Program-made: the position numbers and the translations under genes
Source of the DNA: an uncultured Bacilli bacterium
Lineage (GTDB): Bacteria; Bacillota_I; Bacilli_A; RF39; UBA660
Reading direction: 5' to 3'
DNA length: 34,640 nt
Assembly: GCA_947628365.1 (NCBI GenBank)
Contig: CANQZN010000003.1
Coordinates: 1-34,640, forward strand
Part shown: positions 5,810 to 28,768 of the stretch, piece by piece
Position numbering within the stretch: position 1 is the stretch's first letter
Layout: each line of letters opens with the position of its first letter
The notes under the pieces: generated by a model
What the model was told of the DNA's origin: nothing
The model's input: only the letters and a program-made list of their open reading frames with translations
Database searches by the model: none

Positions 5810-6814
5810 TTATTTATTTTTAATCATAAAGTTATAAGCATCTTTACACATATCTTCTAGATTATACTCACAATGCCATTCTAAATCTTTATTAGCTTTA
5901 GAAGAATCAGCATAACACTCATCAATATCGCCACTTCTTCTTTCAGCGATTTTGTAAGGTATTTTAATATCATTAGCCTTTTCAAAAGCATTAATTATTT
6001 CTAAAACACTATAACCTTTACCAGTACCTAAATTATAAATATAAAGGCCATTTTCCGAATTTTCTAATTTTTCAATTCCTTTAACATGAGCTTTAGCTAA
6101 ATCAATAATATGGATATAATCTCTTACACCAGTACCATCTTTAGTTTTATAGTCATCACCAAAAACATTTAAATGGTCTAACTCTTTAGTTGCAACCTTA
6201 CATATATAAGGCATTAAATTGGCTGGAATACCTAGTGGATCTTCTCCAATTAAACCAGATGGATGAGCACCGACTGGATTAAAGTATCTAAAGATAATTA
6301 TTTTAAATTCTGGATCAGCAATTTCTAAATCTTTTAATATTTGCTCTACAAATAATTTACTGGTTCCATAAGGATTAGTAGTATGTCCTACTTCACACTC
6401 TTCAGTTATTGGTACAATTTTTGGATTACCATACACAGTAGCACTACTACTAAAAACTAATTTTTTAACATTATGTTCTTTCATAACTGTCAAAAGAGTT
6501 AAAACACTACTAACATTATTAATATAATATTCTACTGGTTTTACAACACTATCACCAACAGCTTTATAAGCCGCAAAATCGATAACACAATCAATATTAT
6601 TTTTAGTAAATATTTCATCTAATAACTCTTTATCAAGCATATTACCTTCATAAAAAGTAATATCTCTACCAGTTATTTCTTTAATTTTAGTTAAAACACT
6701 TTTCTTACTATTACTAAAATTATCAAGACCTACTACTTCATAACCTTTTTCTAATAATTCCACACAAGTATGACTACCAATATAACCACAACAACCTGTT
6801 ACAAATATTTTCAT
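5810..6814 (-). CDS. galE: UDP-glucose 4-epimerase
   Basis: MKIFVTGCCGYIGSHTCVELLEKGYEVVGLDNFSNS, SSSATVYGNP, NPYGTSKLFVEQIL, RYFNPVGAHPSGLIGEDP motifs. Confidence 0.95.
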   Translation of the reverse strand: MKIFVTGCCGYIGSHTCVELLEKGYEVVGLDNFSNSKKSVLTKIKEITGRDITFYEGNMLDKELLDEIFTKNNIDCVIDFAAYKAVGDSVVKPVEYYINNVSSVLTLLTVMKEHNVKKLVFSSSATVYGNPKIVPITEECEVGHTTNPYGTSKLFVEQILKDLEIADPEFKIIIFRYFNPVGAHPSGLIGEDPLGIPANLMPYICKVATKELDHLNVFGDDYKTKDGTGVRDYIHIIDLAKAHVKGIEKLENSENGLYIYNLGTGKGYSVLEIINAFEKANDIKIPYKIAERRSGDIDECYADSSKANKDLEWHCEYNLEDMCKDAYNFMIKNK

Positions 6815-7872
6815 TTCTTCTTCTCCTTCTTTTTATGATCATATAATATATCTGTTTTTAAAATCATAAATAGTAATAATATCATTAATATTGAATATAT
6901 AATCATTGCTTCTTTAACATGCCCCATGGTATAAAATATAGAAACAGAAGAAAACAAAAGATTAATTAAATAGATAACTAAAACACTCATGGCTGGCGTA
7001 AATTTTAATTTTAATAATTGATGATGAAAATGTTCTTTATCAGGAGCACCGATATTTTCTCCTTTTAAAATTCTTCTAAAAATAGCAAGTGCTGTATCAA
7101 AAATAGGGATAGCCAAAATCACTAAAGGAATTATTAGTGATGTTAAAGTCGCTACTTTAAAGCTCATTAAAGCACTAACGGCAATCATGAAGCCTAAGAA
7201 TAAACTACCAGAATCTCCCATAAATATTTTAGCTGGGGGAAAATTATGAACTAAGAAACCTAAAGTAGAACCAAACATAATTAAAGATATAATAATATCA
7301 AGACCATTAAATTTACCTAATATTATAGCAATAATACTAATAGTTAAGAAATATATTGAACTAACACCACCGGCAAGACCATCTAAACCATCAATTAAAT
7401 TAATTGCGTTAGATATAGCGACAATAAATAATGTTGATAAAAAGTAACTTGTTAACAAATTAAATTTTAAATTAAGACCTAAAAAAGTTATTTCTGTAAA
7501 AAATACTTGACCATATATAACAACAATTAAAGCTGCAATAGTTTGCACTAAAAATTTATAACGGGCTTTAATTGGATTAATATCATCAAAAACACCAATT
7601 AAAAAGATAATAAAAGAACCAATTAAAATTGATAACATTTGGGTAGTAAGTTCACCATATAAAATATAACCAAATAGAAAAGATATAAATATAGCAAGAC
7701 CACCTAATCTAGGCATTGGTTTTGTATGTACTTTTCTTTCATTAGGCATATCAATTGCTCCAACGTGATGAGCAATCTTTTTAGCTATTGGTACTAATAG
7801 TAAACTTGTAATAAATGTTACTAAAACAATTTCTACTATATTATGATTGTTAATAATCCATTTCATTTCCAA
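6811..7872 (-). CDS. tagO: MraY/WecA-like undecaprenyl-phosphate GlcNAc-1-phosphate transferase (TagO-like)
   Basis: MPNERKVHTKPMPRLGGLAIF, NAINLIDGLDGLAGGVSSI, FPPAKIFMGDSGSLFLGF, HFHHQLL motifs; ATGA overlap with galE. Confidence 0.85.
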   Translation of the reverse strand: MEMKWIINNHNIVEIVLVTFITSLLLVPIAKKIAHHVGAIDMPNERKVHTKPMPRLGGLAIFISFLFGYILYGELTTQMLSILIGSFIIFLIGVFDDINPIKARYKFLVQTIAALIVVIYGQVFFTEITFLGLNLKFNLLTSYFLSTLFIVAISNAINLIDGLDGLAGGVSSIYFLTISIIAIILGKFNGLDIIISLIMFGSTLGFLVHNFPPAKIFMGDSGSLFLGFMIAVSALMSFKVATLTSLIIPLVILAIPIFDTALAIFRRILKGENIGAPDKEHFHHQLLKLKFTPAMSVLVIYLINLLFSSVSIFYTMGHVKEAMIIYSILMILLLFMILKTDILYDHKKKEKKK

Positions 7873-7885
7873 AACACCTATTCTT

Positions 7886-7891
7886 ATTATA
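7886..7891 (-). promoter_or_regulatory. Possible -10 (TATAAT) for the tagO-like gene
   Basis: Minus-strand GGGTATAATAAG between the terminator and the start codon; no clear -35. Confidence 0.35.
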
Positions 7892-7897
7892 CCCTAC

Positions 7898-7944
7898 AAA
7901 AAGAAAAAAGAAAAGAAAACTCTATCAATGATAATAAAGTTTTC
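7898..7944 (-). terminator. Rho-independent terminator between the tandem pseudoknots and the tagO-like gene
   Basis: Minus strand GAAAACT(7944-7938)...AGTTTTC(7921-7915), followed by TTTTCTTTTTTCTTTTT. Confidence 0.7.
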
Positions 7945-7957
7945 TCAATATTTTCAT

Positions 7958-8043
7958 TTGGGATAATTTATTACTCGCACCACCCAAGAGCGAGAAACAT
8001 TGTCGTCCAGAATAATTTATTACTCGCGCCATCTGGGAGCGAG
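7958..8043 (-). ncRNA. Two tandem H-type pseudoknots (structured RNA; attenuator, riboswitch-like or antitoxin-like)
   Basis: Minus strand copies: CTCGC-TC-CCAGA-TGGC-GCGAG-TAATAAATTAT-TCTGG (8043-8007) and CTCGC-TC-TTGGG-TGGT-GCGAG-TAATAAATTAT-CCCAA (7994-7958). P1 = CTCGC/GCGAG in both; P2 = CCAGA/TCTGG versus TTGGG/CCCAA, i.e. compensatory changes at four of five pairs, with loops conserved. Confidence 0.7.
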
Positions 8044-8066: not shown

Positions 8067-8096
8067 AATATACTATAAATTCCTATCAAAAGTCAA
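8067..8096 (-). promoter_or_regulatory. Predicted sigma-A-type promoter upstream of the tandem pseudoknots
   Basis: Minus strand TTGACT (8096-8091), 18 nt, TATATT (8072-8067). Confidence 0.5.
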
Positions 8097-8115
8097 TAAC
8101 TCTTAATAATAACTC

Positions 8116-9597
8116 TTAACTATCATCTTCACTATTCTCTTCTTCTGTTTCCTTCTTTTTACTTTTTCTTTTATTTTTCTTTTTTGGCTTTTCAATTATT
8201 TCTTCAGCCTCAGTTTTATTATCTTCTGTTTTTTCTTCTTCTTTTTGTTCTTCTATTTTATTTTCATCATTTTCTTCTTCTTTAAAAATATCTGCAAATT
8301 CACTTTCTTTTTTTACTGGTACTTTTTTCTTTTTCTTATGACACATAGAAATCATACAAATTAATGATAAGAATAAAGAAATACCAAAAGCTATAATAAT
8401 ATATAGATAAACTTGATTTAATTTCAATACTTCATCAAGTTCACTACGATCATATAAACTAAATGTTTTATTGACTGTATCATAAAGATAGAAATTTTTA
8501 TCTCCTGTTTCAACATTTATACCATATACGACAAAGTTAGTTGAATTATCATTAATTTTAAAACCATCATATTCTTTGTCATTAATCATAACTTTGCTTT
8601 TAATTAAATTGTCTATTTCATCTTTATAATCTAACACTACTATTTTTAAACTAGTACCAACTTCTTCATTATATTTAGTATAGTTACCATTATCATAAAC
8701 AAAACTTTCAACATTACCTTCTTCAGTTTTTAAACCAACTAAAGTATAATTTATTTTTTCATTATAACAAGCAGGTATAGTAATATCATTGATAGTAATA
8801 TCTTTTTCCGTATATAATGTTGGACAATTAAAATTATTTCTTAATTTAATAACAGTATAATTAACGTTATTATAAGTTACATTTATTGGGTTTTGATCTA
8901 TAACATTAACTGTAATAGTATAAGTTTTTTCACTACCATTTTCTGCTCTTACAACTACCTTTAAATTATTAGTGCCTTCTGATACAGAAATAGCTCCATC
9001 ACCACTTACAGAAGCTTTACTATCATTTTCTAAAGCTTTAATATTAACACTATTAGTGCCTTCTGGCACAGTTACAGAATAATTTAAAGTATCTTTATCA
9101 AATGCTGGAGTTAATTCATAACCTTCAACACTTAAAGATTTTAAATTATTATCTTTTGAATAACTAGCTTCTAATTCTTTTTGCGTTATAATTTTGATTG
9201 TTTTACTACCGCTTGTAAGATTTATTTCACTCATATCTGCAAAAGCATAAGCAAGATAACTACCAACAGATACTTTAGTAGAACCAGTTTTTAAAGTTTT
9301 AAAAGTAAATGTGTATTTTTTTGACTTAATTCCTGTGGAAGAAGAGGAAGCCATTCTTACTCCCCCACCTTCACTATTAGTACTTGTAAGTTGCAAATAA
9401 TTTTTATCATAATTAAGTTGCATTTGCCAACTACCAATTGCTGTACTACTAGATAGGGTAACTGTAACTGTAACTTTATTACCCACTACTACTTGAGAGG
9501 TACTAGTTACAGAAATATTACCTGAAGTAGCATAAACAAAATTGGGTATTAATAATAAACTAATTAATGTTACAATCCATAATTTTAATTTTTTCAT
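8116..9597 (-). CDS. Surface protein with signal peptide, cohesin-like domain, cadherin-like beta-sandwich domain, C-terminal TM and charged tail
   Basis: Signal peptide MKKLKLWIVTLISLLLIPNFVYA; cohesin-like VVVGNKVTVTVTLSSSTAIGSWQMQLNYDKNYLQLTST; LKSLSVEGYELTPAFDKDTLNYSVTVPEGTNSVNI...ENGSEKTYTITVNV beta-sandwich repeat; TM VYLYIIIAFGISLFLSLICMISM, then K/E-rich tail. Confidence 0.75.
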   Translation of the reverse strand: MKKLKLWIVTLISLLLIPNFVYATSGNISVTSTSQVVVGNKVTVTVTLSSSTAIGSWQMQLNYDKNYLQLTSTNSEGGGVRMASSSSTGIKSKKYTFTFKTLKTGSTKVSVGSYLAYAFADMSEINLTSGSKTIKIITQKELEASYSKDNNLKSLSVEGYELTPAFDKDTLNYSVTVPEGTNSVNIKALENDSKASVSGDGAISVSEGTNNLKVVVRAENGSEKTYTITVNVIDQNPINVTYNNVNYTVIKLRNNFNCPTLYTEKDITINDITIPACYNEKINYTLVGLKTEEGNVESFVYDNGNYTKYNEEVGTSLKIVVLDYKDEIDNLIKSKVMINDKEYDGFKINDNSTNFVVYGINVETGDKNFYLYDTVNKTFSLYDRSELDEVLKLNQVYLYIIIAFGISLFLSLICMISMCHKKKKKVPVKKESEFADIFKEEENDENKIEEQKEEEKTEDNKTEAEEIIEKPKKKNKRKSKKKETEEENSEDDS

Positions 9598-13721: not shown

Positions 13722-13748
13722 AATCTCGAAGAGAGATTTTTTTATTTA
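13721..13748 (+). terminator. Terminator of uppP, possibly shared with the convergent paralog gene
   Basis: AAATCTC-gaaga-GAGATTT followed by a T-rich tail. Confidence 0.8.
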
Positions 13749-15050
13749 TTCTTTTATTAAGAAAGGATCTGTTATTGTACCACTTCCACTTAATAATTGC
13801 TCGGATGAATCGATATAGAAGACAGGCCTAATACAATATTTTGTTGATGATACCCAAGTATTAGTATAGCCTTCAGAACGAATATAAAAAAACGCATATA
13901 CACCCCAACTTGTGTTCCAGCCATTACTCGTCATTGTCCACTCGTGAGCTTCTGTATCATTTTTACTTAAGTGCATCCAACTATTTTTACAATTAGTACC
14001 ATCAGTTGCAAATGGATTACAAATAGCATCATCACTTAAAGCATAGTAGTAATCATGTAAATACATTAGACTTACTTTACCATTAAAAGTTTTTGCCCAT
14101 TTTTCATTCTTATGACGTATATAATAAAATGTTTGATCTTCATACTGTCCATATTGAACTACATATGGTTGTGCTCCCAAGTCTCCTTGATTTGCTTTTA
14201 CATCCCATACCGTTCCTTTTTGCCCAGTTTCGACCAAATATAATTCTTTTCCTATTTGTTTTGCACCAGCATTATCATTTTCTAACATATCTCCATATGT
14301 CCATGTATTAGTTGCTATCTTTTCTTCCCAGCCTTTGGGTACAAAATCAGGATTTTCTAAAAAGTCACTTCCACTTATTGCTTTATATATATTACTTTCT
14401 GGAAATGTTATATCTGTATCATAATCTGTATACCATTGATATAATCCATTTTCTGTTTCTTTTAATGCTTCTTTTTTTATTACTTTTACTCTTCCTGTTT
14501 CTGCTTCTATTCCTATTATTCTATACATATAATGATTTGTATCTTTTGTACAAGTATCTTTATCACTTGTCCCAAAACATATATAGTTATCTACTAGTTC
14601 ATTTCCATTTTCATCTTTTGCTTGTCCTTGAAATCGATACATTTCTCCTCGTACTTTATCTGTACTTAATCCTTTGGGTTCTTTTTCTTTTATTTCTAGT
14701 CCCAAACTCTTATCAAAATATAAATAACAATAGGTTGTATTTCCACTGGATATTGTTACTGAATTATTTTCATAGCTTAGTACTCCACTTAATTCATTTC
14801 CATTATTGTCTATACATTTACTTTCCTTAATATTTAAGACATATCCTTCTGGAAATTTATTACCTTCAACTGGTACATAATTATTTTCACTTTCTTCTTT
14901 ATACATTGCAAATGTTTTATTATTTACTTCTTGTTTCAATATGACATTATCTAATTGTATATTTTCTTTCGGCTTAAATATTATGACACCGGTTAGTATT
15001 ACTCCTACCAAAAGTATTATTAATAAATATTTTTTGTTAATTATTCTCAT
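13746..15050 (-). CDS. Membrane-anchored (probable surface) protein, paralog family copy 1, with C-terminal SWMHLS/EWTM...IRPVFYI module
   Basis: Shares N-terminal MRIINKKYLLIILLVGVILTGVI, YICFGTSDKDTC, YMYRIIGIEAETGRVKVIKKEAL, KVSLMYLHDYYYALSDDA, SWMHLSKNDT, HEWTM, IRPVFYI with the ORFs at 20477 and 27432. Confidence 0.85.
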   Translation of the reverse strand: MRIINKKYLLIILLVGVILTGVIIFKPKENIQLDNVILKQEVNNKTFAMYKEESENNYVPVEGNKFPEGYVLNIKESKCIDNNGNELSGVLSYENNSVTISSGNTTYCYLYFDKSLGLEIKEKEPKGLSTDKVRGEMYRFQGQAKDENGNELVDNYICFGTSDKDTCTKDTNHYMYRIIGIEAETGRVKVIKKEALKETENGLYQWYTDYDTDITFPESNIYKAISGSDFLENPDFVPKGWEEKIATNTWTYGDMLENDNAGAKQIGKELYLVETGQKGTVWDVKANQGDLGAQPYVVQYGQYEDQTFYYIRHKNEKWAKTFNGKVSLMYLHDYYYALSDDAICNPFATDGTNCKNSWMHLSKNDTEAHEWTMTSNGWNTSWGVYAFFYIRSEGYTNTWVSSTKYCIRPVFYIDSSEQLLSGSGTITDPFLIKE

Positions 15051-15079: not shown

Positions 15080-15106
15080 ATTATATATTACCCCCCCCGG
15101 TGTCAA
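15080..15106 (-). promoter_or_regulatory. Promoter of paralog copy 1 with G8 tract in the spacer
   Basis: Minus strand TTGACA (15106-15101), CC, G8 (15098-15091), TAATA, TATAAT (15085-15080): 15-nt spacer, or 17 nt if TAATTA (15083-15078) is the -10. Confidence 0.7.
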
Positions 15107-17112: not shown

Positions 17113-17136
17113 AAAAGAGTGTTTTAACTACACTCT
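17113..17136 (-). terminator. Terminator of ileS
   Basis: GAGTGT/ACACTC hairpin followed on the minus strand by TTTTCTT. Confidence 0.65.
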
Positions 17137-20100
17137 ATTTAGCTTTTTCAATACTTACTAATACTTTAATACCATTAACATTAATTTCTTCTGTAGCATT
17201 ATTATCATTCTTAATTTCTTTAGCTAAAGTTTCATTTTTAATATAATCACTAAATTCATCTAAAACTTTAGTGAATTCTTCACTAGAATAATAAATATTA
17301 ATGCGGTCACTAACATCATAACCATTAGATTTACGCATATTTTGAATTTTAGAAACGAATTCACGAGCATGACCTTCATTAATTAAATCATCTGTTAAAG
17401 TTGTATTTAAAATAATGAATAAGTTATCTAATACCCCAACATTAAAGCCTTCTTTAGAAGAAATCTTAATTTCATACATATCTTTAGTAATTGTTGTATC
17501 TTCAAATTTTACCTCTTTACTAGTTAATTCTTGTAAAGTAGTATTTTGTAAAAAGTTTTCATATTCTTTAATTTTAGAACCGAATAGACGACCTACTTCT
17601 TTATAATTTGGTTTTAGAGTAACATTCATATATTTATTTAAATCATTTTCGGAAATAATTTCTTTAACATTTAATTCTTCAGCAATTAAAGGAATTAAAT
17701 TATTAATTTTTTCATAGACACTTGTTTCAATGATAGCTTCTTTTAATGGTGTTCTTACCTTTATTTTCGCTTCTTCTCTTACCATTCTTCCTAAAGAAAT
17801 TAAATTTCTAACATAATCCATTTTTTCTTCTAGGGCTGTATTTATTAATTCTTCATTGGCAATTGGATAGTTAGCTAGATGAACAGATTCTTCACCAGTT
17901 AAATTACGATACATCTCTTCACTTAAGAAAGGTACAATTGGAGCCATTAATTTAGATAGTCCCACTAAAACTTCATAAGTTGTAATATAAACAGATTTCT
18001 TAGAATTATCTAAAGAACTACCCCAGAAACGATTACGACATCTTCTAATATACCAGTTAGATAAATCTTCAGAAACAAAACTAGTTAAATATTTAACAAC
18101 TTTATTTAAGTCATATTCTTCAAAAGAATTAGTAACATTTTTAACTAAAGTATTATATTTAGATAATAACCATTTATCTATTTCTTCTCTATCATTAACT
18201 GATACATTACATAAATCAGTATCTATACCGTCAACATTAGCATACATACAGAAGAAATTATATGTATTTCTTAGAGGGTTAAAGAATTTTGAATAAACTT
18301 CTTTTAAACCATCAATATCAAATTTTAATGGTGTCCATACTGGTGATACATAAGGTAAGTAAAATCTAACTGTATCTGCCCCATATTCTTTAATTGTTGT
18401 AAATGGTTCAACAATATTACCACGGCTTTTACTCATTTTCTTACCTTCAGCATCAAGTAATAAATCGTTAACTAAAACATTTTTAAATGGACTACAACCT
18501 TTTACAAATACAGAAATAACCATTAAAGTATAGAACCAACCTCTAGTTTGATCTATTCCTTCACAAATAAAGTCAGCTGGAAATTGAGTTTCCCAAAATT
18601 CTTGATTTTCAAATGGATAATGATATTGAGCAAAAGGCATTGAACCTGAGTCAAACCAACAATCTAAAACATCTGGTATTCTCTTCATTTCGCCACCACA
18701 TTTTGGACATTTCAAATAAACATTATCTATATATGGTTTATGTAAATCTAAATCATCACCAAGAGGTTTAGTAGACATTTCCTTTAATTCTTCAATTGAA
18801 CCAACCATATGATTATAGCCACAAGAACATTTGAAGAAAGGAATTGGACTACCCCAATAACGACTTCTTGATACATTCCAATCTTTAGCATTAGCTATCC
18901 AATTAGCAAATCTCTTTTCACCAACATAATCTGGATACCATTTAACACTTTTATTGGCTTCGACCATTTTATCTTTAAAAGCAGATACTTTAACATAATA
19001 ACTTGGCATAGAGTAATAAATAAGTGGTGTATGACAACGCCAACAATGTGGATAATCATGCATTATTTTTTGACGTTTAAATAATTTATTATTAGCTTTT
19101 AAATAATCTACTACTTCTTCATTAACATCGAAAACAAATTTACCTTCCCATAATCCTTCTGTGTAACAACCATCTTTACCTACGGGATTAATTGTTGGTA
19201 ATTCATATTTTCTTCCTACATTAGCATCATCTTCACCAAAAGCTGGAGCAATATGAACAATACCAGTTCCATCTGTCATCGTAACATAATTATCACAAGT
19301 AACATAGAAAGCTTTATCTTTAACATTAATTTCTGGAATTAATTGTTCATATTCAGTATATTCTAAAGTTTTACCCTTAAATGTATCTAATATAGTTGCA
19401 TCTTCTCCTAAAACATTACTAACTAAAGATGTCGCAAGTATAAACTTATTTCCTTTAGACTCTACTAGTGAATAATCTTCATCTGGATTAACACATAACG
19501 CTACATTAGCAATAAGTGTCCATGGTGTTGTTGTCCAAACTAAGAAGTATACATCTTCTCCCTTTTTCTTAAAAGGAACATATACAGTTATAGCTTGTTC
19601 ATTTACATATTCTTGGGCTACTTCATGAGATGCAAGACCAGTTCCACAATGAGGACAATATGGTACAACTCTTGTTCCTTCATAGAATAAGCCTTCTTCA
19701 TAGAATTTCTTTAAAATCCACCATTCAGTTTCAATATATTCATTTTTATATGTTAAATATGGATTTAAAACATCAATAAATTGGCCCATTTTACTTGTTA
19801 AATCAGTGAAAGCACTTTCATTTTCTCTAACACTTTTACGACATTCAGCATTAAATTTATCAACACCTAGGGCTTCAATTTCTTTTTTAGATGAGATACC
19901 TAATTTCTTTTCAACATGATTTTCAATAGGTAATCCATGAGTATCCCAACCTACTTTACGGATAACTTTATATCCTTTCATTACTTTATACTTACAAATA
20001 GAATCTTTTAAATTCTTTGATACCATATGGTGTAATCCTGGAAATCCATTAGCAAATGCTGGGCCATCATAAAAGACAAAAGTTTCACTATCTTTTCTAT

Positions 20101-20206
20101 TTTCAATTTGTCTTTTTGTTATCTCATTAATGTCATGCCAAGAGTCTAAGATACTTTGTTCTACTTCTTGATAAGGTCTTTTGTCAAGTTCTTTAAAATT
20201 TTTCAT
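17135..20206 (-). CDS. ileS: Isoleucyl-tRNA synthetase
   Basis: DGPAFANGFPGLHHMVSKNLKD (HIGH-like), GWDTHGLPIE, DAEGKKMSKSRGNIVEP (KMSKS). Confidence 0.97.
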   Translation of the reverse strand: MKNFKELDKRPYQEVEQSILDSWHDINEITKRQIENRKDSETFVFYDGPAFANGFPGLHHMVSKNLKDSICKYKVMKGYKVIRKVGWDTHGLPIENHVEKKLGISSKKEIEALGVDKFNAECRKSVRENESAFTDLTSKMGQFIDVLNPYLTYKNEYIETEWWILKKFYEEGLFYEGTRVVPYCPHCGTGLASHEVAQEYVNEQAITVYVPFKKKGEDVYFLVWTTTPWTLIANVALCVNPDEDYSLVESKGNKFILATSLVSNVLGEDATILDTFKGKTLEYTEYEQLIPEINVKDKAFYVTCDNYVTMTDGTGIVHIAPAFGEDDANVGRKYELPTINPVGKDGCYTEGLWEGKFVFDVNEEVVDYLKANNKLFKRQKIMHDYPHCWRCHTPLIYYSMPSYYVKVSAFKDKMVEANKSVKWYPDYVGEKRFANWIANAKDWNVSRSRYWGSPIPFFKCSCGYNHMVGSIEELKEMSTKPLGDDLDLHKPYIDNVYLKCPKCGGEMKRIPDVLDCWFDSGSMPFAQYHYPFENQEFWETQFPADFICEGIDQTRGWFYTLMVISVFVKGCSPFKNVLVNDLLLDAEGKKMSKSRGNIVEPFTTIKEYGADTVRFYLPYVSPVWTPLKFDIDGLKEVYSKFFNPLRNTYNFFCMYANVDGIDTDLCNVSVNDREEIDKWLLSKYNTLVKNVTNSFEEYDLNKVVKYLTSFVSEDLSNWYIRRCRNRFWGSSLDNSKKSVYITTYEVLVGLSKLMAPIVPFLSEEMYRNLTGEESVHLANYPIANEELINTALEEKMDYVRNLISLGRMVREEAKIKVRTPLKEAIIETSVYEKINNLIPLIAEELNVKEIISENDLNKYMNVTLKPNYKEVGRLFGSKIKEYENFLQNTTLQELTSKEVKFEDTTITKDMYEIKISSKEGFNVGVLDNLFIILNTTLTDDLINEGHAREFVSKIQNMRKSNGYDVSDRINIYYSSEEFTKVLDEFSDYIKNETLAKEIKNDNNATEEINVNGIKVLVSIEKAK

Positions 20207-20224: not shown

Positions 20225-20450
20225 AATAAAAAAATTCATAACATAAGGACGAGTATTACCCGTTGTACCACCTTATTTTATGAATTTAATTCACCTTTAA
20301 TATGTATAACGCCATAAACGGATTATTTTTAATAATCACTCCCAAGTGATATAAATTAAAATTCCTTTATTAGTTTGCACCAACCACTAACTCTCTTGAA
20401 ATTCCTTTTAATTTACTTGTCTTGTTCAACATTTATACTTTAAATTATAT
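20225..20450 (-). promoter_or_regulatory. T-box riboswitch leader of ileS
   Basis: Minus strand AGAGAGTTAGTGGTTGGTGCAAACTAA distal stem I; candidate specifier ATC (20350-20348); T-box AAGGTGGTACAACGGG; terminator hairpin with T-run before ileS. Confidence 0.85.
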
Positions 20451-20476: not shown

Positions 20477-21826
20477 TTATTTTATGATTTTATGATAAAA
20501 GGGATTGTCTATTGTACCTAACCCACTAGATATTGTTTGTAATGATTCGATATAGAAGACTGGTCGAATGGACCAATCATACGTAAAAACACTAATATGT
20601 ATATTGCCTTCTTCAGTCACAAAAAAGCCAACTAAACCACCATGCCAAGTTCCCCATCCAACACGTGACATTGTCCATTCATGTGGACTTGGTGCACTAG
20701 TATCATTTTGACTTAAATGCATCCAACTATCCTTACATTTTGAGTACTCTGATTTGCCAAATTCAGAGCTGCATTTAGCATCATCACCTAGGGCATACGA
20801 ATAATCATGTAAATACATTAAACTTACTTTTCCAGTAAATGTATCTGTCCAATTTCCGGATTCTGTCTTATAGTATAATATTGTTCCTTGTTTATATTTA
20901 TCATTTTCAGCCCATTGTACTTGGTATGCTGTTCCCCCAGCTTCTTGAGTGGATTTTACATACCAGATAGTTGGTTTATTTCCAGCTTCTATATCATATA
21001 ATCCTATTCCCAATTGTTTTGCTCCTAATTCACTATCATATCGCATATTTCCATATAGCCAATCATTATCATCTATCTTATCCTTCCATTCTGTTGTAAT
21101 ATATGATTGATTATCTAAAAAATCAGCACCATTTATTGCTTTAAAGAATACGCTATCCGGCAGTTTAATATCTGTTACATAATCTGTATCCCATTGGTAT
21201 GTTTGATTTAAAGCTTCTTTCTTAATTACTTTTATTCTACCAGATTCTTCTATTCCTATTATTCTGTACATATAATGATCTTTATCGTTTACACATGTGT
21301 CTTTATTACTTGTTCCAAAACAGATGTAATTATTATCTACATCTGTTGCTTGCCCTTGATATCTATACATACCACCTTTTGTTTCATCTGATAAATTATC
21401 TATTGTTTTGATTTTATTTAATTTATCAGAATTACCCATACATTCTTGCATTGTACTTCCATCACAGATAGTGCCTAAGTTTTCTTTTTCATCAAAGTAT
21501 AAATAACAATAAAATGATTTATTACTTTTTACTCCTACTTGATTATTTTTTGTATATAATGCATTTTCTATTTCATTACCGTCTTTATCTAAACATTTAC
21601 TTTTATCTAAATTGAGTTTATATCCTTTGGGAAAATCATTTTCTTCATATTCTTCATATCCATTTTTTGTTTCTTTGTACATTGCAAACATATTATTACT
21701 TATTTCTTGTTTTAATATTACATTATCTAATTTTACTTCTTCTTTTGATTTAAACACTATGACACAAGTTAATATTACTCCTACCAATAAGATTATCACT
21801 AAATATTTCTTGTTAATTATTCTCAT
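20477..21826 (-). CDS. Membrane-anchored (probable surface) protein, paralog family copy 2
   Basis: Same N-terminus MRIINKKYLVIILLVGVILTCVI and modules YICFGTSNKDTC, GKVSLMYLHDYSYALGDDAKC, SWMHLSQNDT, HEWTMSRVGW, IRPVFYI. Confidence 0.85.
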   Translation of the reverse strand: MRIINKKYLVIILLVGVILTCVIVFKSKEEVKLDNVILKQEISNNMFAMYKETKNGYEEYEENDFPKGYKLNLDKSKCLDKDGNEIENALYTKNNQVGVKSNKSFYCYLYFDEKENLGTICDGSTMQECMGNSDKLNKIKTIDNLSDETKGGMYRYQGQATDVDNNYICFGTSNKDTCVNDKDHYMYRIIGIEESGRIKVIKKEALNQTYQWDTDYVTDIKLPDSVFFKAINGADFLDNQSYITTEWKDKIDDNDWLYGNMRYDSELGAKQLGIGLYDIEAGNKPTIWYVKSTQEAGGTAYQVQWAENDKYKQGTILYYKTESGNWTDTFTGKVSLMYLHDYSYALGDDAKCSSEFGKSEYSKCKDSWMHLSQNDTSAPSPHEWTMSRVGWGTWHGGLVGFFVTEEGNIHISVFTYDWSIRPVFYIESLQTISSGLGTIDNPFYHKIIK

Positions 21827-21855: not shown

Positions 21856-21881
21856 ATTATATATTACCCCCCCGGTGTCAA
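21856..21881 (-). promoter_or_regulatory. Promoter of paralog copy 2 with G7 tract in the spacer
   Basis: Minus strand TTGACA (21881-21876), CC, G7 (21873-21867), TAATA, TATAAT (21861-21856): 14-nt spacer (16 nt to TAATTA). Confidence 0.7.
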
Positions 21882-27431: not shown

Positions 27432-28712
27432 TTATTTTATTATAAAAGGATCTTCAGAAGTTCCAGTTCCACCCGCTAATTGGTTCACAGATGCGAGATA
27501 GAAGACTGGACGGATATGATGATAGCCATCTATTTCCCAATTGTTAGTATTCCCAGGATCACTCACAACAGATCCAACATATAAACCAGTACCAGGATCC
27601 CAACCAGTACGCGACATTGTCCATTCATATGGATTTAAAATTGTATCATTTTGACTTAAATGCATCCACCCGGATCGACATATTTCATAATCGCCTTCAT
27701 TATATTGGCAATTTGCATCATCACTTACGGAATAATGATAGTCATGAAGATACATTAAACTTATCTTACTATCAAAAGTATTTATCCATTTACCACTTTC
27801 GTTTATAAAGTAAATTGTATCTCCTATATACGGGGAATTTTCATTATCTACTACCCCTTGTTTTGCACCTGGAGTATCTTTTGTTGCATAAATATCCCAA
27901 TTTGTCTCTTTTTTCCCTGTTTCTACTAAATATAAACCTTCTCCAGTTTGACGAGCTCCTAAATAATCATCGCTTAACATATCTCCATATGTCCAGACAT
28001 TATTAGCTATCTTCTCTTCCCAACCATTTGGAATATATTGCTTGTTTTTTAAAAAATCTTCTCCATTTATCGCTTTATAAATATTACTTTTAGGAAATTC
28101 TATATCATCATCATAGTTATCCCACCAATTTATTGTTTTATTTAATGCTTCTTTTTTTATTACTTTAACCCTTCCGGTTTCTGCTTCGATTCCTATTATT
28201 CGGTACATATATTTATCTGTATCACCTTTACAAGTATTTTGATCACTTGTTCCGAAACAAATATAGTTTTCTACATTTTCGTTTTGTTGACCTTGAAATC
28301 TATACATAGCTCCTTTGATTTCCGCGCTTAATTTATTTGGCTCCTTTTCTTTTATTTCTTCGCCTAGACTTTTATCAAAATATAAATAACAATATATTGT
28401 ATTTCCACTTGTTATTGTTACTTTATCATTTTCATAACTTAGTACTCCATTTAATTCATTACCATTATTATCTATACATTTTGATTTTTCTATATTAAGT
28501 ACATACATATCTGGAAATTTATTATCTTTAACTAGAACATAATTATTGTCATCTTCCTCTTTATACATGGCAAATGTTTTGTTATTTACTTCTTGTTTTA
28601 ATATGACACTATCTAGCTTCACTTCTTCTTTTGATTTAAAAAATATAACACCGGTTAATATTATTCCTACCATAATTATTATCAATAAATATTTTTTGTT
28701 AATTATTCTCAT
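27432..28712 (-). CDS. Membrane-anchored (probable surface) protein, paralog family copy 3
   Basis: N-terminus MRIINKKYLLIIIMVGIILTGVI and shared modules YICFGTSDQNTC, YMYRIIGIEAETGRVKVIKKEAL, KISLMYLHDYHYSVSDDANC, GWMHLSQNDT, YEWTMSRTGW, IRPVFYL. Confidence 0.85.
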   Translation of the reverse strand: MRIINKKYLLIIIMVGIILTGVIFFKSKEEVKLDSVILKQEVNNKTFAMYKEEDDNNYVLVKDNKFPDMYVLNIEKSKCIDNNGNELNGVLSYENDKVTITSGNTIYCYLYFDKSLGEEIKEKEPNKLSAEIKGAMYRFQGQQNENVENYICFGTSDQNTCKGDTDKYMYRIIGIEAETGRVKVIKKEALNKTINWWDNYDDDIEFPKSNIYKAINGEDFLKNKQYIPNGWEEKIANNVWTYGDMLSDDYLGARQTGEGLYLVETGKKETNWDIYATKDTPGAKQGVVDNENSPYIGDTIYFINESGKWINTFDSKISLMYLHDYHYSVSDDANCQYNEGDYEICRSGWMHLSQNDTILNPYEWTMSRTGWDPGTGLYVGSVVSDPGNTNNWEIDGYHHIRPVFYLASVNQLAGGTGTSEDPFIIK

Positions 28713-28741: not shown

Positions 28742-28768
28742 ATTATATATTACCCCCCCCGGTGTCAA
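28742..28768 (-). promoter_or_regulatory. Promoter of paralog copy 3 with G8 tract in the spacer
   Basis: Minus strand TTGACA (28768-28763), CC, G8 (28760-28753), TAATA, TATAAT (28747-28742): 15-nt spacer (17 nt to TAATTA). Confidence 0.7.

Follow-up and report, generated by a model that had tools for sequence, protein, structure and literature searches.

Tandem RNA pseudoknots upstream of tagO in an uncultured Bacilli bacterium: a probable solitary CptI-type antitoxin

What are two RNA-like repeats doing between a surface-protein gene and a tagO-like gene in the genome of an uncultured Bacilli bacterium? The window, i.e., the whole stretch of 34,640 nucleotides analysed here, carries on its minus strand two 37-nt units with a 49-nt period, and both their coordinates and their sequence, given in a first-pass annotation, were verified. 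The features of the locus, from upstream to downstream on the minus strand, are the following:

8116-9597, minus strand: gene for a surface protein with cohesin and cadherin-like domains (PF12733, PF00963), upstream neighbour
8095-8119, minus strand: two copies, in tandem, of the 12-mer TTAAGAGTTATT (repeat family D3)
8067-8096, minus strand: array promoter, TTGACT, 18 nt, TATATT (consensus scan)
8007-8043, minus strand: putative antitoxin repeat 1, read from 8043 to 8007 as CTCGC TC CCAGA TGGC GCGAG TAATAAATTAT TCTGG, with P1 CTCGC/GCGAG and P2 CCAGA/TCTGG (sequence, covariation and an identical unit in the toxin-linked locus L146)
7958-7994, minus strand: putative antitoxin repeat 2, read from 7994 to 7958 as CTCGC TC TTGGG TGGT GCGAG TAATAAATTAT CCCAA, with P1 CTCGC/GCGAG and P2 TTGGG/CCCAA (sequence; the nearest toxin-linked arrays have TCGGG/CCCGA)
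7897-7946, minus strand: Rho-independent terminator, with a 15-bp A/T-rich stem (7913-7946) and a T tract (folding)
7886-7891, minus strand: tagO's own -10, TATAAT (conserved upstream of tagO in array-less relatives)
6811-7866, minus strand: tagO/wecA-like glycosyltransferase family 4 gene (PF00953, E 1e-40), a neighbour outside the antitoxin

The two stems interleave as a-b-a'-b', as had been proposed, and P1 and P2 are both Watson-Crick at 5/5 positions in each unit, which makes 10/10 P2 pairs over the two. Four of the five P2 pairs differ between the units, each difference being compensated, and the loops are as alike as the annotation had them, L1 and L3 being the same in both units with a C/T change only, at the junction. 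L1 is 2 nt long; L3, UAAUAAAUUAU, is 11 nt long and largely conserved across the aligned units, as read from sequence only.

Interleaved stems are frequent by chance in a window as A/T-rich as this one, so that one unit alone carries little weight: with the same loop ranges, about 24 single a-b-a'-b' sites per strand occur in simulated sequence, and 31 and 47 on the strands of the window. Two such sites in tandem that agree in P1 and in loop lengths are found once in the window and in none of 40 simulated strands. The decisive support for an RNA structure is the comparative covariation of both stems. Indeed, when 32 units from the window and from toxin-linked loci are aligned, 93% of the cells pair and double changes are seen at 7 of the 10 pairs; in the control, where the partners were slid by 1-3 columns, only 29-48% of the cells of these 32 units pair. 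On such comparative evidence, the window element is best described as a selected H-type RNA pseudoknot on the minus strand, which is what the annotation had argued from the two units and what covariation over the 32 related units bears out.

The class of the element had not been recognised, and this holds for Rfam: the units are outside Rfam 15 families, no match above the gathering threshold was obtained for the window stretch or for the toxin-linked arrays, and the candidate families (riboswitch, ToxI, others) were rejected, as gathering and relaxed thresholds gave only unrelated sub-threshold matches. The class itself is nevertheless a known one, CptI, through toxin-linked copies; ToxI and CptI had both been suggested for comparison, and CptI proved the right kin. 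A pattern for the array unit, run over the genome itself (1.10 Mb, 88 contigs), revealed one more array, on contig C32, where a promoter, two repeats and a terminator are followed by a gene for a protein of 159 aa. This protein matches NCBIfam NF047359 (CptIN family toxin, E 5.9e-43) and the CptN chain of PDB 4RMO (E 1.3e-16), and the array-linked toxins matched no Pfam family, were not recognised by PADLOC and hit CptN alone among the type III toxins of the PDB. By profile search, 20 of 100 relatives have CptN, with the same arrays read at those loci; in this genome, the profile detected two CptN genes only, on contigs C15 and C32. No CptN match or toxin remnant was found in the window, in a draft genome that is 92% complete and could hold a group-A toxin (see below) elsewhere. 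Because this genome and its relatives hold copies next to toxin genes, we assign the window unit to CptI, as a predicted antitoxin of this type that is a variant with a longer repeat.

CptI antitoxins are tandem pseudoknots with a very short L1 and a long A-rich loop across S1 that holds a kink U; in E. rectale CptIN, the endoribonuclease CptN cuts the precursor RNA, and the single pseudoknots hold CptN inactive in a closed complex (PMC4627078). The window shares with CptIN (E. rectale, PDB 4RMO, NF047359) the tandem H-type repeats, the short L1 and the A-rich loop across S1, as well as the promoter-array-terminator layout, the terminator after the array being at the same position and of the same sequence type, and homologous arrays precede CptN genes. 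It differs by its period (49 nt versus 45 nt in E. rectale CptI), its L3 (11 nt versus 9), its L1 of 2 nt and TGGY junction, and by a locus without a toxin gene downstream, where tagO is found instead. When 400 genomes of the phylum were searched with the toxin of E. rectale, a single relative was obtained, L206. Its toxin shares 71% identity with the query, and its array, with a 9-nt loop, served as a reference; the window shares with this E. rectale-like array the CGCT...GCG and ATAAnT core. ToxIN and AbiQ also have a tandem-repeat RNA pseudoknot antitoxin followed by a terminator. Membership in ToxIN was ruled out, as the window has 49-nt repeats and CptN-type linked toxins, whereas ToxI repeats are 36 nt long (PMC3475682).

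How, then, did such an array come to stand before tagO? A TTGACN...ATAGTATATTA..TTGCA block is present upstream of most toxin-linked arrays and also in the window promoter. The array terminator (fold of -15 kcal/mol, z -4.9) was missed by a G+C-based scan, being A/T-rich, and was found by folding; its GAAAACTT..GATAGAGTTTTCTTTT sequence is also found between array and toxin in complete systems, and the toxin slot between this terminator and tagO is empty here. The tagO gene is core in the genus (33/38 genomes), with a cohesin-like surface-protein gene upstream in many array-less relatives too, and a GGTATAAT..TAGGTGTTTTAAATG-type sequence is kept before tagO in relatives without an array. In array-less relatives with the same upstream gene, the end of this gene is followed by a T tract and by tagO's own TATAAT promoter. 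Among the 30 tagO loci read, the array is present at one, that of this genome, and its absence at the 29 others indicates an insertion between two neighbours, not a tagO leader. A cis-regulatory leader or riboswitch of tagO, a tie that the first-pass annotation had implied and that the location of the array, immediately before tagO and in the same orientation, would favour, is rejected by this comparison as a most improbable reading, all the more so because a terminator and tagO's own promoter intervene and because the array unit elsewhere precedes CptN. As a side observation, the tandem 12-mer TTAAGAGTTATT coincides precisely with the upstream insertion junction and is a possible trace of the event.

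Toxin clade and antitoxin signature largely correspond. Arrays of the window type, which we call group A (CTCGC-TC ... TAATAAATTAT), go with toxins such as those of L014, L131, L136 and L146. The last of these, from an uncultured Bacilli of rabbit gut, is the nearest complete array: it has an intact toxin and a repeat 1 identical to that of the window, with repeats 96% identical overall, a leader 59% and a terminator 81% identical. Its repeat 2 has TCGGG/CCCGA as P2 versus TTGGG/CCCAA in the window, and the difference between window repeat 2 and the nearest toxin-linked arrays comes down to one compensated C-G to T-A pair in P2. The two resident CptN toxins fall into two other clades and share 44-69% and 50-60% identity with group-A toxins, and the window RNA is, on this clade assignment, without a resident toxin partner of its own group. 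The presence of two CptN genes in the same genome could suggest that the array serves as an extra antitoxin for them in trans, but both toxins have their own arrays in addition to being of other clades, and published CptI did not cross-inhibit toxins of 35-44% identity (PMC4627078), the values here being 44-69%; we consider such a role quite unlikely.

Very probably, the window locus is a solitary CptI-type (type III) RNA antitoxin, most simply read as the remnant of a CptIN module without its toxin. This reading takes in what the sequences establish on structure, family link, layout, missing toxin and insertion with respect to other species. An array of the CptI type acquired without any toxin would leave the same picture. 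A CptIN module of specificity group A would have been inserted between the cohesin-like gene and tagO, and the toxin would have been lost before the antitoxin, because losing the antitoxin first would be lethal. Recombination at TTTTCTTTT-like runs, in the array terminator and in the ancestral tagO upstream region, is a conceivable route for this loss. The array promoter would drive a short RNA made of two pseudoknots and ending at the terminator; if still transcribed, this RNA may neutralise any group-A CptN that a phage or gene transfer brings in.

The covariance-model search that the annotation had advised was run on 38 genomes of the genus, the loci being read and spurious matches removed; units were found in 23 of them. 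Loose unit matches with unpaired stems (e.g., poly-G promoters, window 8915-8955) were discarded. The genus has 17 toxin-linked and 19 solitary arrays, which puts the toxin-less state on a par with complete systems; one of the 19 is followed by a further array and another is preceded by a toxin gene. Of the remaining arrays, 3 are stacked ahead of another, 1 has a toxin fragment and 1 lies at the end of its contig. An exact pattern run over GTDB genomes gave 98 contigs, nearly all titled uncultured Bacilli or Clostridia, and these plus one viral contig yielded 110 arrays: 59 with a full CptN within 900 nt downstream, 14 with a fragment, 25 solitary and 12 at contig ends. At L022 (2030-2470, minus strand), L013 (1069-1410) and L012 (2261-2644, minus strand), arrays of mixed specificity stand in series before one CptN gene, L022 having six repeats of three kinds upstream of one toxin.

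CptI units are also found in viruses. Complete CptIN modules are present on the IMG/VR viral contigs L205, L211 and L213, and toxin-less CptI-like units in phages L208, L209, L210, L212, L214 and Geobacillus virus E3, several of them near tRNA clusters. In the complete genome of Geobacillus virus E3 (L215 2453-2547; KP144388.1, about 7491-7585), two successive units with perfect P2 stems lie unannotated between a PhoH-like gene and gp7, and L208 (61 kb; 14 tRNAs in the stretch read) combines at about 2701-2798 a window-like unit and an E. rectale-like one. The phage units covary with the toxin-linked units, and no CptN match was found in the phage records that carry them (L208, L209, L210, L212, L214 and E3); some viral matches of one unit only were obtained with a short degenerate pattern and carry less weight than L208 and E3. 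The viral match L207 was discarded as a chance pattern match with no repeats, and no credible match to the window array was obtained when collections of phages and plasmids were searched with blastn. These phage units are possible RNA antidotes against CptIN defence. Phage PhiTE, the known precedent for mimicry of this sort, carries such a toxin-less antitoxin-like RNA, pseudo-ToxI, which is able to neutralise the host toxin and whose 1.5 repeats in the wild-type phage are expanded in escape mutants (PMC3475682). Both PhiTE pseudo-ToxI and the window array are toxin-less, but the former is of the ToxI type, whereas the latter is chromosomal, of the CptI type, and has two full repeats.

Could the window array be retained because it is an antidote (anti-addiction) to CptIN modules entering by gene transfer or phage? 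Type II systems offer a parallel, in which orphan (anti-addiction) protein antitoxins are kept on chromosomes without their toxin; both cases are chromosomal antitoxins without a toxin, a protein in type II and an RNA here. In favour of an antidote, the genus has as many solitary arrays as complete ones (19 versus 17), many of the solitary ones being intact, and arrays are also present in genomes where no CptN was found, such as G031 and G014 (each 94% complete). At L022 and L013, arrays that differ in specificity follow one another ahead of a single toxin, the presence of CptIN on some viral contigs means that the toxin travels, and phages have toxin-less units of their own. Passive loss of the toxin first nevertheless predicts much the same pattern, and we regard maintenance as an antidote as possible rather than probable.

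The other reading is that of a decaying relic, in which loss of the toxin has left the RNA without a function and a future collapse by recombination between the repeats is to be expected. As the search pattern leaves P2 free, P2 pairing is a fair read-out of decay: P2 is broken in 1/112 toxin-linked units and in 3/11 single solitary ones (Fisher p 0.002), but solitary arrays with several repeats are in no worse state than toxin-linked ones (1/28 units broken, p 0.36). Stages of decay are visible, from broken toxins (L161, L137/L076, L171, L182) to single hybrid repeats with an unpaired P2 (L058, L066, L118, L150, L163); as single units are often repeat 1/repeat 2 hybrids, collapse between repeats is a visible decay route. 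Single repeats resembling such fusions, mostly with a poorly pairing P2, were seen at L058, L066, L072, L118, L150 and L163. Within this range, the window array stands at the intact end: it keeps its promoter, its terminator and the two repeats, with P2 paired at 10/10 positions, which speaks against decay. So do solitary arrays common to one site in different species (L141/L203, 96.5% over 1.6 kb; L064/L070/L072, 87-95%), since they indicate that a toxin-less state can last. We still lean, if only mildly, towards a relic, which is more likely than an antidote because losing the toxin before the antitoxin needs no selection. Arrays, solitary or complete, also have the same conserved flanks in different species (L059, L062, L109, L111, L188; L064, L065, L070, L072), which suggests preferred or long-held sites.

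Other features of this genome deserve mention. A promoter of the form TTGACA-CC-G(6 to 10)-TAATA-TATAAT, with a spacer poly-G tract of varying length, is present in 39 exact copies in the 1.1-Mb genome and was absent in the two genus members tested; these promoters look like a genome-wide phase-variable set. Those of the window lie just upstream of ORFs without a Pfam match:

15080-15106, minus strand: poly-G promoter (sequence match), upstream of ORF 13746-15050
21856-21881, minus strand: poly-G promoter (sequence match), upstream of ORF 20477-21826
28742-28768, minus strand: poly-G promoter (sequence match), upstream of ORF 27432-28712
20242-20438, minus strand: T-box leader (Rfam RF00230), upstream of a 1023-aa ORF (17135-20206)

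The CptI family is known; its solitary (orphan) state is apparently undescribed, no description of solitary CptI arrays being found in the literature searched, whose coverage is incomplete. Type III systems are catalogued mainly via their toxins, so that toxin-less antitoxins are missed, and Rfam holds no model detecting even the toxin-linked arrays tested here. With a covariance model of the unit, toxin-less arrays match complete systems in frequency in one gut genus. Tentatively, solitary type III RNAs might be recurrent, selected antidotes, with bacteria keeping, and at times stacking, toxin-less CptI arrays of several specificities against incoming CptIN and the units of phages, often near tRNA clusters, disarming CptIN. 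Orphan RNA antitoxins may thus be a protection against new toxins or phages, or else the debris of lost modules.
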